Part shown: in pieces, positions 5,076 to 9,648 of the stretch | Position numbering within the stretch: position 1 is the stretch's first letter | How the letters are laid out: each line of letters starts with the position of its first letter | Source: a bacterium | GTDB taxonomy: Bacteria; Thermosulfidibacterota; Thermosulfidibacteria; Thermosulfidibacterales; JALWSI01 | Length of the DNA stretch: 9,648 nucleotides | Direction: 5' to 3' | Assembly (NCBI GenBank): GCA_027080315.1 | Contig: JALWSI010000006.1 | Span: 1-9,648 of the forward strand | Position numbers and translations under genes: made by a program | Notes under the pieces: generated by a model | Told to the model about the DNA's origin: nothing | Databases searched by the model: none | Seen by the model: only the letters and a program-made list of their open reading frames with translations

Positions 5076-5435
5076 CTAACAATGTTCAGGATCAATATCA
5101 AGAATAAGGGCAAGAGATCTCTTGATGGCGTCCATTGTGGAGAAGGCGATCTCCCCAACTTTACCCACGAATCTTTTGTGGCTAATCGCCCGGATATGGA
5201 AACAATCAACAGCCGACCTTTTCTTCAAACCGTTTTTAGCATCAGGATCCAGGATAACGAAAAATGGGTTTCCTTCCCACGAAGGCTGCGCTTCCGTCAG
5301 GGGAACGACGATCGCGAGTTTCAGGTGTTTTTCATGCCCTCCGTTCAGGACCACCACAGGCCGTTTCTTCTTGATCTCGTCGCCGATGGTGGGATCAAGA
5401 TTGACCCAGTGGATTTCACCCACCTTCAAAGCCAT
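5076..5435 (-). CDS. mazF: MazF/PemK-family endoribonuclease toxin
   Basis: This is a 119-residue protein of the MazF/PemK/CcdB-fold family, whose members cut single-stranded RNA at short sequences and stop translation when the antitoxin is lost. It begins with the diagnostic KVGEIHWVNLDPTIGDE, then KKKRPVVVLNG with R25, and LAIVVPLTE with T47. R25 and T47 sit where the catalytic arginine and threonine fall in characterised MazF proteins. The C-terminal block DCFHIRAISHKRFVGKVGEI is also typical. The length matches the family (about 110-120), so the gene is probably functional. Its start overlaps the 3' end of the upstream antitoxin gene by 20 bp, the classic coupled antitoxin-first arrangement. 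It lies 155 bp upstream of dnaE on the same strand, so read-through into dnaE is possible. The exact cleavage site cannot be predicted. Confidence 0.93.
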   Translation of the reverse strand: MALKVGEIHWVNLDPTIGDEIKKKRPVVVLNGGHEKHLKLAIVVPLTEAQPSWEGNPFFVILDPDAKNGLKKRSAVDCFHIRAISHKRFVGKVGEIAFSTMDAIKRSLALILDIDPEHC

Positions 5436-5689: not shown

Positions 5690-5808
5690 CACTAATTAAG
5701 ATCTTTTGACCCCACTATCAAGGCCCAGAATAAGGCCTCTTGGTTTGTAACCCGGCAAGCCGTGAAGCGTAAGAAGGGTAGGACTGAGTGCCAAGGACTG
5801 GGTCCAGA
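5690..5808. other. Gene-free divergent intergenic stretch
   Basis: This is the left part of the region between two divergent TA operons. No reading frame with a start and ribosome site was found on either strand. Two AGGCC elements about 8 bp apart near 5720-5740 and a GCGTAAG-like word near 5767 are visible. That word also opens the two other 7-bp repeat tracts, so the tract at 5809-5921 may begin here in a decayed form. Confidence 0.4.
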
Positions 5809-5921
5809 GATCAGAAGTCAGAGGTCAGTAGTCAGAAGTCAATAGGCAGAGGTCAGCTGTCAGTAGGCGGTAGTCAGAAGTCAGTAGATTCTTAACCCTT
5901 AAAACTTGCAACTTAAAACTT
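5809..5921. repeat. Degenerate 7-bp-period repeat tract A
   Basis: About 16 units of 7 bp can be laid in register. GTCAGAA / GTCAGAG / GTCAGTA / GGCAGAG type units pass, without a break in period, into AACCCTT / AAAACTT / GCAACTT / AAAACTT. The tract lies between the divergent promoters of the MazF and VapBC operons. It belongs to the same family as the tracts starting near 6669 and 7309, but it lacks the 9-bp-period part that follows those two. No coding role is evident. Confidence 0.8.
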
Positions 5922-5988: not shown

Positions 5989-6222
5989 ATGCCCAATGTG
6001 ACCATCTCTATTTCTGAGCACCTGTTGGAGAAGGTCAGAAGGTATGCAGCCCAGCGGGGCACCTCTTTGAACAGGCTCATACGAGAGCACTTAGAAGAAC
6101 TGGTGGGTTTAGAGAAAGAGCATTTGGAAAAGACCCTTGAAGAGCTGTTAGAGCTAACAGAGAAGCACGGAGGCAAAATAGAGGAGTGGAAGAGAGAAGA
6201 GCTCTATGAGGGGCGGGTATAG
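5989..6222 (+). CDS. vapB: VapB-type ribbon-helix-helix antitoxin
   Basis: This 77-residue antitoxin partners the PIN toxin that overlaps it. Residues 1-40 form an RHH domain: strand PNVTISIS, helix EHLLEKVRRYAAQRG, then SLNRLIREHLEELVG. The remainder is a highly charged helix (EKEHLEKTLEELLELTEKHGGKIEEWKREEL) expected to run along the toxin and cover its active site. The ATG at 5989 is supported by GGAGGGG 7 nt upstream. The gene overlaps vapC by 17 bp, so translation is probably coupled. The palindrome over its -10 region suggests autoregulation. Assignment rests on domain pattern and the toxin beside it. Confidence 0.9.
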   Translation: MPNVTISISEHLLEKVRRYAAQRGTSLNRLIREHLEELVGLEKEHLEKTLEELLELTEKHGGKIEEWKREELYEGRV

Positions 6223-6706
6223 GGTCTTTTTTGACACAAACGTTCTTGTCTATCTTCACGACAAAAAGACCCCCGCCAAAAGGGGCATTGCAAGAGAGCT
6301 TCTGCTTCACTGGTTTCCCACGGGTAGAATGGTGGTATCCACCCAGGTGCTACAAGAGCTCTATGTGGTGCTCACTAAAAAGCTCATCCCGGCCATGCCA
6401 CCTGAAGAGGCCTTAGAAGAGCTAAAAAAGCTCAGTTTAGGCGCCAAAACCGTGAGCATAAGCCCAGACATGGTCTTTGACGCTATCAGGACCCACCTTG
6501 AGAACAGAATCTCTTTCTGGGATGCCCTTATCGTAACAGCAGCGGCCTACGGCGGCTGCAAGGTTATATTCACCGAAGATCTCAATCACGGACAAACAAT
6601 AAACGGGGTAAGGATAGAGAATCCCTTTAGAGGAAGCCAAAAAAGCAGGGATAGCAAAGAAGTACTGAGCGTGAGGCGTAAGGAGTCAGGAATCAGAGGT
6701 CAGTAG
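6206..6706 (+). CDS. vapC: VapC-type PIN-domain ribonuclease toxin
   Basis: VapC toxins are Mg-dependent RNases that often cut tRNA or rRNA and halt translation. The PIN acidic residues are all present: D10 in VFFDTNVLVY, E51 in STQVLQELYVVL, D106 in ISFWDALIV and D125 in IFTEDLNHGQ. The fold normally ends soon after the strand VRIENPF (135-141). This protein continues for about 25 more residues (to 166), rich in Ser, Lys and Arg. From about 6669 those codons are the opening units of the 7-bp repeat tract, and the stop codon itself (TAG, 6704-6706) is inside a repeat unit. The tail therefore looks like a read-through extension caused by the repeat replacing the original stop. The start overlaps vapB; no better start is visible. 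The toxin is likely active. Confidence 0.93.
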   Translation: MRGGYRVFFDTNVLVYLHDKKTPAKRGIARELLLHWFPTGRMVVSTQVLQELYVVLTKKLIPAMPPEEALEELKKLSLGAKTVSISPDMVFDAIRTHLENRISFWDALIVTAAAYGGCKVIFTEDLNHGQTINGVRIENPFRGSQKSRDSKEVLSVRRKESGIRGQ

Positions 6707-6787
6707 TCAGAGGTCAGTAGGCAGTAGTCAGAGGATTCTTAAAACTTGCAACTTAAAACTTATAAGCAACTTAACCCTTAAAACTTC
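6669..6787. repeat. Degenerate 7-bp-period repeat tract B
   Basis: Units run GCGTGAG, GCGTAAG, GAGTCAG, GAATCAG, AGGTCAG, TAGTCAG and onward, changing in register to TTAAAAC / TTGCAAC units near 6740-6765. A short link ATAAGCAACTTAACCCTT follows. The tract begins inside the 3' end of vapC and supplies its stop codon. Its order of sub-blocks closely matches tract C at 7309-7440. Confidence 0.8.
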
Positions 6788-6792
6788 CTGTC

Positions 6793-6870
6793 AAACCCAA
6801 CAAACGCAAGCAACTCAAGAAACGCAATAAACCCAACAAACCAAACAGACCAGATAGACCAGACAAACCC
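6793..6870. repeat. Degenerate 9-bp-period repeat, tract B
   Basis: About nine units in exact 9-bp register: AAACCCAAC, AAACGCAAG, CAACTCAAG, AAACGCAAT, AAACCCAAC, AAACCAAAC, AGACCAGAT, AGACCAGAC, AAACCC. The first five units recur in nearly the same order at 7445-7489. An open frame on the minus strand through this tract is a by-product of the period being a multiple of 3. The tract ends just before the promoter of the next TA locus. Confidence 0.82.
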
Positions 6871-6875
6871 ATACA

Positions 6876-6913
6876 TTGACCGGTATCGTATTGTGGTATA
6901 TGCTAAAGGTATC
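6876..6913 (+). promoter_or_regulatory. Promoter with three spaced GGTATC/A elements
   Basis: TTGACC (6876-6881) and TATGCT (6899-6904), 17 bp apart, form a plausible sigma-70-type promoter for the antitoxin gene at 6939. Three direct elements GGTATC, GGTATA and GGTATC start at 6882, 6895 and 6908, exactly 13 bp apart, spanning the spacer, the -10 region and the start point. They are candidate binding sites for the RHH antitoxin. A ribosome site AGAAGGAAG follows shortly before the ATG. Confidence 0.5.
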
Positions 6914-7308: not shown

Positions 7309-7440
7309 GCGTAAAGCGTAAGGAGTAAAGAGTCAGGGATCAGAGGTCAGTAATCAGAAGTCAGAGGTCAGAGGTCAGAAGTCAGTATATTCTTAAAACT
7401 TACAACTTAAAACTTAAAACTTATAAGCAACTTAACCCTT
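7309..7440. repeat. Degenerate 7-bp-period repeat tract C
   Basis: The tract starts about 10 bp after the mazF remnant's stop codon. Units run GCGTAAA, GCGTAAG, GAGTAAA, GAGTCAG, GGATCAG, AGGTCAG, TAATCAG, AAGTCAG and so on, then TTAAAAC / TTACAAC / TTAAAAC, followed by the same ATAAGCAACTTAACCCTT link seen in tract B. It shares the block order of tract B at base-level similarity high enough to suggest a duplicated or dispersed module. Confidence 0.8.
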
Positions 7441-7444
7441 CACA

Positions 7445-7604
7445 AAACCCAATAAACGCAAGCAACCCAAGAAACGCAATAAACCCAACAAACCCAACAG
7501 ACCAGACAGACCAAACAAACCAGATAGACGAGACCGACCAGACAGACCAAATCAACCAGACAGACGAGATAGACCAAACAGACCAGATAGACCAGACAAA
7601 CCAA
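7445..7604. repeat. Degenerate 9-bp-period repeat, tract C
   Basis: About 17 units of 9 bp: AAACCCAAT, AAACGCAAG, CAACCCAAG, AAACGCAAT, AAACCCAAC, AAACCCAAC, then a long run of AGACCAGAC / AGACCAAAC / AGACGAGAT variants. It is roughly twice as long as the copy at 6793-6870. The tract ends 2 bp before the stop codon of the minus-strand gene at 7607-7858, so it fills the space between two convergent genes together with the 7-bp tract. No gene was found inside. Confidence 0.82.
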
Positions 7605-7893: not shown

Positions 7894-8003
7894 GTAACAA
7901 TCCCTTTTAAGCAGGTCTCAAATTCCAACTAAGAGTGAAGATAAAAGAAGACGCAAGAGAAAGGATAGTCTTAATCCCTTTTCAGCAGGTCTCAAATTCC
8001 AAC
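7894..8003 (-). repeat. Degenerate terminal CRISPR repeats
   Basis: The first repeat (7894-7929) differs from consensus at four positions (bases 3-5 and 16). The second (7968-8003) differs only at base 16, the G that closes the TTTGAG stem, which is C here and A in the first. The only other variant seen is C to T at base 10 in the repeat at 8352. Decay at one end is the usual mark of the leader-distal end, so the oldest spacers are here. Confidence 0.85.
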
Positions 8004-8705
8004 AACTGGACGGGGTGAACCCTCACTTCAAGAGTAAATATGCGTCTTAATCCCTTTTGAGCAGGTCTCAAATTCCAACCCCTTCAAGGTTCTTTGACAA
8101 CGGGATATGGGTTGGTGCCGTGTCTTAATCCCTTTTGAGCAGGTCTCAAATTCCAACAAGAGAGATGAGGAAGGATGAGATAAGGGAGATATTGAGGTCT
8201 TAATCCCTTTTGAGCAGGTCTCAAATTCCAACGAGGTGTTAGGCTATGGCAAAGCGTGAGGTGTTGGAGAGAGTCTTAATCCCTTTTGAGCAGGTCTCAA
8301 ATTCCAACATAGGTTGAGAGGCAGAATCACACAGAAGGGAGGAGCGGCCATGTCTTAATCTCTTTTGAGCAGGTCTCAAATTCCAACTCCCTAAAAGACC
8401 TTCGGGAAGGTGTCGAGGTCTTCAGAGGCCGTCTTAATCCCTTTTGAGCAGGTCTCAAATTCCAACCCAGAGGTGCTCCGGTTCAAGAAAGAGGAGGTGC
8501 CAGCATGAGAAGTCTTAATCCCTTTTGAGCAGGTCTCAAATTCCAACAAGAGACAGGGGTGGTGTATATCCAAGACAAATACTTCAACACGTCTTAATCC
8601 CTTTTGAGCAGGTCTCAAATTCCAACTCAAAAACTTGGCTTTTTCTTCCAACATTAGTTTCCTGTCTTCGTCTTAATCCCTTTTGAGCAGGTCTCAAATT
8701 CCAAC

Positions 8706-9017
8706 GTGCGGGTTGTAGACCTGCGCACCTATCGGCCAGGCCCTAATTGGTCTTAATCCCTTTTGAGCAGGTCTCAAATTCCAACGCTTCTCAACCTTGG
8801 ATGAAGTATTGGCCTTTAGAGAGATGTCTTAATCCCTTTTGAGCAGGTCTCAAATTCCAACGTGCGGGTTGTAGACCTGCGCACCTATCGGCCAGGCCCT
8901 AATTGGTCTTAATCCCTTTTGAGCAGGTCTCAAATTCCAACGCTTCTCAACCTTGGATGAAGTATTGGCCTTTAGAGAGATGTCTTAATCCCTTTTGAGC
9001 AGGTCTCAAATTCCAAC
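8706..9017. repeat. 156-bp tandem duplication inside the array
   Basis: 8706-8861 and 8862-9017 are identical: a 44-nt spacer, a repeat, a 40-nt spacer and a repeat. Spacer 11 equals spacer 13, and spacer 12 equals spacer 14. The likely cause is unequal recombination or slippage between repeats, not independent acquisition, since two neighbouring spacers are copied in order. Confidence 0.95.
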
Positions 9018-9648
9018 CCACAGACGAAGTCATCCTCATCCAAACTCCTGGTCTTGGAGTCTTAATCCCTTTTGAGCAGGTCTCAAATTCCAACATGTAG
9101 TTGCCTTTAGAGAATTGATTAACAATTTGGGTGAGTCTTAATCCCTTTTGAGCAGGTCTCAAATTCCAACAAACTAATCATCCTTACAGGTAACCCCAAG
9201 CAATGGTATGGTCTTAATCCCTTTTGAGCAGGTCTCAAATTCCAACGAAAAAAGAGAGTGGGAAGGTTGCAAAGTAGTGCTAAGCTATAGTCTTAATCCC
9301 TTTTGAGCAGGTCTCAAATTCCAACGAGAGAGATGGGATGACCAAACAAGAAGCACAGAAGTTTGTGTCTTAATCCCTTTTGAGCAGGTCTCAAATTCCA
9401 ACAGAGGAGGAGAGGATGAGATATTATGGGAGCGTGAGGCACCGTCTTAATCCCTTTTGAGCAGGTCTCAAATTCCAACTATTTCAAAGGAGGGAACCAT
9501 AATGACTGTAACAGATTTCGTCTTAATCCCTTTTGAGCAGGTCTCAAATTCCAACTATTTCGTTTATTAAGTCTTCCAACTCATTATATTGTTCTTGTCT
9601 TAATCCCTTTTGAGCAGGTCTCAAATTCCAACGAGAGAGATGGGATGA

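Follow-up and report, generated by a model that had tools for sequence, protein, structure and literature searches.

Translation-start patterns are overrepresented among the spacers of a type III-A CRISPR array: four of its 23 distinct spacers (at 8233, 8467, 9403 and 9480) carry a strong SD sequence followed by an ATG on the + strand, and none of the 23 does so on the − strand. The array closes the window, our term for the whole stretch of DNA analysed here (contig C6, 9648 bp, from a 1.84 Mb, 94%-complete draft genome), and is a known kind of system with a quantitative oddity. The excess is seen in two arrays, that of the window and array G351b of the unrelated genome G351, and is not general. 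It occurs on the functional strand in both genomes, which are unrelated but share their adaptation gene layout, and provides a concrete, testable pattern that addresses an open question, namely whether transcript-matching spacers in type III systems devoid of a reverse transcriptase (RT) arise by biased uptake, by selection, or by both.

Array architecture and cas genes

The array fills the final 1.75 kb of contig C6 and is cut by the contig end (Table 1). Its two leftmost repeats are diverged, which identifies this side as the leader-distal, old end. Four further copies of the repeat, the first truncated by the contig end, occur on contig C186 (L009). Beyond them the G+C content drops for a stretch, after which come cas2, cas2, cas1 and cas6 and then the end of csx1, all directed toward the array. 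The two contigs are not joined, and their identical repeat and matching broken ends suggest that they are parts of one array. Of the 22 complete spacers in the window, 20 are distinct; C186 adds three, giving the total of 23. Since the last repeat on C186 is followed by the leader side and the cas2 genes, the leader is placed on the right and crRNAs would be transcribed leftward. A leftward sigma-70-like promoter was searched for in the leader and not found, so that this orientation is based on array anatomy, not on a promoter. In crRNA sense the repeat ends in GGGATTAAGAC, an end shared with the related repeats of genomes G007 and G351. The tandem duplication inside the array, together with the last 52 nt of C6 (9597-9648), which are a copy of the repeat-spacer start at 9290, would fit either slippage duplication of repeat-spacer units or an assembly that broke off where a unit is duplicated.

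Table 1. Features of the window array, in window coordinates.
Feature	Position	Strand	Remarks
CRISPR array	7894..9632	- (crRNA sense)	23 copies of a 36-nt repeat (+ strand GTCTTAATCCCTTTTGAGCAGGTCTCAAATTCCAAC); leader on the right-hand side, on C186 (L009)
Spacer, MRKDEIREIL after weak purine stretch	8158..8196	+	No strong SD; alone not above chance
Spacer, GAGGTG, 7 nt, ATG (MAKREVLER)	8233..8272	+ (target-mRNA sense)	Strong class
Spacer, end GGGAGGAGCGGCCAT	8309..8351	+	Possible start truncated by spacer end; criterion cannot score it
Spacer, AGGAGGTG, ATG (GGAGGT, 6 nt gap)	8467..8511	+	Strong class
Spacer, weak start pattern (MLEEKAKFL)	8627..8669	- (crRNA-sense strand)	Wrong strand for mRNA targeting
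Tandem duplication, two repeat-spacer units	8670..8981		156 nt, identical copies
Spacer, MTKQEAQKF	9326..9366	+	Suggestive only; first 8 nt = last 8 nt of C186 spacer
Spacer, AGGAGG, 5 nt, ATG (MRYYGSVRH)	9403..9443	+	Strong class
Spacer, AAGGAGG (AGGAGG, 8 nt), ATG (MTVTDF)	9480..9519	+	Strong class

A Cas10/Csm1 gene (E 1.4e-130) on contig C168, adjoined by Csm2-like and Csm3-like frames that were recognised by reading without a profile, assigns the system to type III-A, and Cas6 (E 4.6e-82) and the HEPN part of Csx1 (E 5e-34) were matched near the array on L009. The preliminary description had suggested acquisition from mRNA 5′ ends, for example by an RT-Cas1, and had advised looking for an RT-Cas1 or type III cas genes beyond the array. 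The type III-A genes were found there and elsewhere in the genome (C186 and C168), but no RT: the adjoining cas1 encodes 380 aa with the Cas1 domain alone, and an RVT_1 search of the 94%-complete genome, from which about 6% is missing, gave no match. As no RT was found fused to Cas1, nearby or elsewhere in the 94%-complete genome, and the cas1 beside G351b is also RT-less, RT-Cas1 adaptation was rejected for the window array.

Five type III-associated loci (L009 541-2245, L129 3627-5265, L159 7601-9249, L161 12529-14174 and L047 1904-5184) have in common an adaptation module that consists of a cas1 of 340-380 aa and two cas2; the two cas2 share only 37-42% identity with each other where compared. 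A search of genome_contigs for Cas1 relatives confirmed none.

Start-site spacers exceed chance expectation

A spacer was assigned to the strong class when it contained at least 6 nt of TAAGGAGGTGATC (SD), a gap of 4-10 nt, and an ATG from which the frame stays open up to the end of the spacer; this criterion was chosen after the case was seen, so that its P values are optimistic. All four strong spacers had been singled out in the preliminary description, and the motifs are present as described there, including the coupled-gene arrangement in spacer 8467-8511, whose upstream frame terminates at a TGA overlapping the ATG. Dinucleotide shuffles of the array's spacers yielded a mean of 0.45 strong starts, with 0/3000 reaching four. 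In the host genome, where several genes have an SD-like sequence ahead of their start, 0.9% of N-free 41-nt segments score as strong. For calibration on sense transcripts we used Thermus phage P23-45 (early region), Geobacillus phage GBSV1 and Thermoanaerobacterium phage THSA-485A, in which the proportions of 41-nt segments are 2.3%, 1.7% and 2.7%, respectively. At these rates of 1.7-2.7% per spacer, 0.4-0.6 strong spacers are expected, so the earlier estimate of fewer than one was about right, and the probability of at least 4/23 is 5e-4 to 3e-3 under the post hoc criterion.

With the SD relaxed to 4 nt or more (weak class) there was no excess: four spacers were observed against 3.2 for the shuffles, and SD strings lacking an ATG were not enriched over shuffles either. 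The further starts previously proposed at 8158, 8309, 9326 and 8627 can be read as claimed, but with these patterns at shuffle level none of them is evidence individually. Spacer L009 177-216 on C186 holds GGAGGTGA, and its final 8 nt equal the first 8 nt of spacer 9326 (GAGAGAGA); joined, the two would give GGAGGTGAGAGAGATGGGATGACC, a further gene start that is suggestive only, the overlap being short and of low complexity. The start-site observation is in this respect partly confirmed: its strong core is real and above chance, with putative start sites recognised from motif and frame.

Spacers are predicted to lie predominantly in mRNA sense

Strands were assigned with a 4-mer model that had learned from the reading frames of the host genome itself and was right for 71% of held-out 41-mers. 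It placed 16 of 23 window-array spacers in mRNA sense on the + strand, corresponding after error correction to ~98%, with a wide error at n=23. For array G351b, a second array of the same genome (G351a) and the array of genome G402, the counts were 27/36, 9/12 and 23/35, again with corrected values near 1; a survey of mapped spacers reported an average of 65% coding-strand matches for type III (PMC8482600). With the leader on the right and spacers in mRNA sense on +, crRNAs would be antisense to mRNA, the orientation needed for type III interference, and the model predicts that nearly all crRNAs of the window array are complementary to invader transcripts.

Start-site spacers in related arrays

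Genome G351 is complete and belongs to a different phylum-level group from the window genome; its array was picked by the repeat end, not by its spacers. Array G351b (C1:3373049-3375835) lies beside cas2, cas2, an RT-less cas1, csm5, csm4, csm3, a csm2-sized frame, cas10 and cas6. Strong starts occur in 6/36 spacers on the target-sense strand and in 0/36 on the other, compared with 0.14 in shuffles and with P about 1e-4 to 6e-4 from the phage rates. Two of the six cover one start site, and four G351b spacers overlap head to tail, so that a single frame can be read without a break from AAGGAGTAAAAGATG to MLDQIKRRVEKGKWWDTVIFYSGDPKVFNPET, at the 5′ end of one gene. This tiling makes it very likely that at least that SD-ATG is a real gene start, repeatedly sampled on one strand.

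The G351 and G402/G401 loci resemble that of the window in a cas1 that is ~35-36% identical, two tandem cas2, the repeat end and mRNA-sense spacers. They differ from each other in effectors, III-A in G351 and III-D-like in G402 (twin cas2), and in the start-site excess, which is strong in G351b and weak in G402 (1/38). G402 and G401 contain one strong start-site spacer each, from relatives of one gene family (MTxxDKILxQYD). When the G351, G402 and G401 arrays were pooled with the discovery array excluded, 8/98 spacers were strong vs 2.7% expected (P about 0.005, or 0.015 if the two overlapping G351b spacers are counted once). The unrelated arrays of G369, G001/G003/G007 and three plasmids gave 1/136. 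Among the other arrays, the enrichment is thus borne out by G351b, but most show little or none.

Some spacers of these arrays merit separate mention. Other spacers of G402 and G401 (L159 array 9471-12128; L161 array 14398-15043) match the 5′ end of the MTxxDKILxQYD family in both genomes, and one G402 spacer resembles the 3′ part of a tRNA (GCGGGTTCGATTCCCGC). In G001 (L044 array 18525-19897), one spacer is almost exactly the reverse complement of another, as if a single protospacer had been stored both ways. A G007 spacer (L048 array 32-394) holds TTAAGGAGGTAATCATGGC, a strong start in target sense; the repeat and cas1 of this locus differ.

Database searches for targets

Spacer searches against viral and plasmid sequences, proposed in the preliminary description, were run and returned no protospacer of the window array: blastn against phages and plasmids gave only chance matches and the repeats of other arrays, and exact cores of five spacers were absent from viral_contigs. 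The exact repeat was found in neither genome_contigs nor viral_contigs, G351b protospacers were not found in phages and plasmids, and degenerate patterns for two recurrent target genes had no match in viral_contigs. In 318 kb of N-free sequence from the window genome itself, the search for self-targets gave only chance matches of 12-17 nt. A comparison of phage P23-45 with plasmid-borne Thermus arrays, in which real type III protospacers were sought, gave no match.

Possible origins of the start-site excess

We give about an even chance to an account that combines RT-independent DNA uptake, selection for mRNA-complementary crRNAs and a bias toward gene 5′ ends. Cas1 with Cas2 would capture invader DNA without reverse transcription. 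Since type III effectors depend on complementary RNA, a spacer would be retained if its crRNA base-pairs with a transcript of the invader. If uptake and/or retention in addition favoured the 5′ ends of invader genes that are expressed and closely packed, ~1/6 of spacers could come to lie over an SD-ATG vs 2-3% expected from even transcript sampling. The small numbers, the post hoc criterion and the little excess in G402 (1/38), which has the same layout, call for caution about this account. We consider it improbable that an RT-less type III lineage defined by cas1 and two tandem cas2 preferentially samples or retains spacers from the translation starts of invader mRNAs, in the orientation giving antisense crRNAs. 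If this were true, twin-cas2 modules would have a built-in route to functional RNA-targeting spacers without reverse transcription. Hairpin-driven uptake was rejected for the window array, as hairpins are not enriched at its spacers (mean folding z 0.06).

A less probable but still plausible explanation is that there is no start preference, and that even sampling along invader mRNA, very short genes, strong SDs and small-number luck produce the pattern. With genes of 200-300 nt, 90% of them with a strong SD and ATG, the probability of at least 4/23 would be 0.25-0.09 and that of at least 6/36 would be 0.21-0.05; the pattern is also absent or weak in most other arrays, and the lack of a protospacer in the searched collections leaves room for gene density as the cause. 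The measured phage transcripts speak against it, since even the gene-dense P23-45 early region falls within the range of only 1.7-2.7%, as do the resulting P values (0.0005-0.003 for the window array, about 1e-4 to 6e-4 for G351b). That spacer composition alone generates SD-like purine runs followed by ATG seems very unlikely: the window-array spacers are 60% purine on +, and lone SD strings and weak SD-ATG pairs stay at shuffle level, but dinucleotide-preserving shuffles never reached four strong spacers in 3000 trials and the pattern recurs in G351b, whose spacers are less purine-rich than those of the window array.

The remaining explanations concern how spacers are made or kept. The nearly one-sided strand bias and the 5′-end spacers, including the head-to-tail tiles of G351b, are what would be expected if an RT, fused to Cas1 or separate, copied mRNA 5′ ends and the sense cDNA were stored in a fixed orientation. 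We regard this RNA-derived origin as highly improbable, given the absence of an RT domain from cas1 in the window genome and in G351b, the absence of RVT_1 from the 94%-complete genome, and the finding that the M. mediterranea RT-Cas1 acquires spacers in either orientation, with strand bias depending on interference (PMC5576922). Alternatively, start-site spacers might be retained since their crRNAs protect best, either in a region free of elongating ribosomes or by also blocking initiation, as had been proposed earlier. The direction of this proposal is supported by crRNAs predicted to be antisense to mRNA, and the spacers lie on the functional strand and overlap the SD-ATG itself rather than merely the region downstream. 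Selection for crRNAs that act on mRNA is plausible, whereas selection specific to start sites is hypothetical; with the effect weak or absent in G402 and G351a, type III arrays of the same strand bias, we judge such retention unlikely.

Relation to known type III systems

A close precedent is the RT-less type III-A system of Streptococcus thermophilus, for which a review (PMC9048733, citing Zhang et al.) reports spacers enriched 10-50 bp after start codons, on the encoding strand, without help to defence and tied to DNA hairpins and tRNA/rRNA genes. Both systems are type III-A, RT-less as far as found, and have repeat-spacer duplications (8670-8981 in the window), and the spacers enriched near start codons in S. 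thermophilus have a possible counterpart in the putative start sites of the window array. In S. thermophilus the peak is downstream, on the encoding strand and hairpin-linked; in the window array the spacers overlap the SD-ATG, positions being assigned by motif and not by protospacers, the crRNAs would be antisense to mRNA and thus of the functional orientation, and there is no enrichment of hairpins.

Of two reports on RT-less type III systems of Thermus, one found that spacers show no strand bias before selection but a very strong bias after it (PMC7515739), and the other that natural protospacers are concentrated in early or transcription-initiating regions (PMC6452258). The likeness to Thermus thermophilus lies in an RT-less type III system whose natural spacers are nearly all complementary to viral transcripts and cluster in those regions (PMC7515739, PMC6452258). 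Start codons, in contrast, are not mentioned in the passages cited, and protospacers are known there and none was found for the window array. RT-Cas1 type III systems (Marinomonas mediterranea III-B and others) share type III effectors and RNA-related spacer content with the window array, but no RT domain or RT gene was found in the 94%-complete window genome.

Other features of the window

Small toxin-antitoxin-like genes occur in the window, among them a PemK/MazF-like gene (5076-5435) and a PIN domain gene (6206-6706). Between the toxin-antitoxin-like genes lie degenerate direct repeats of the GTCAGAGGTCAGTAG type (5803-5921, 6664-6768 and 7318-7422) and 9-nt periodic tracts of the ACCAGACAG type (6777-6880 and 7429-7604).
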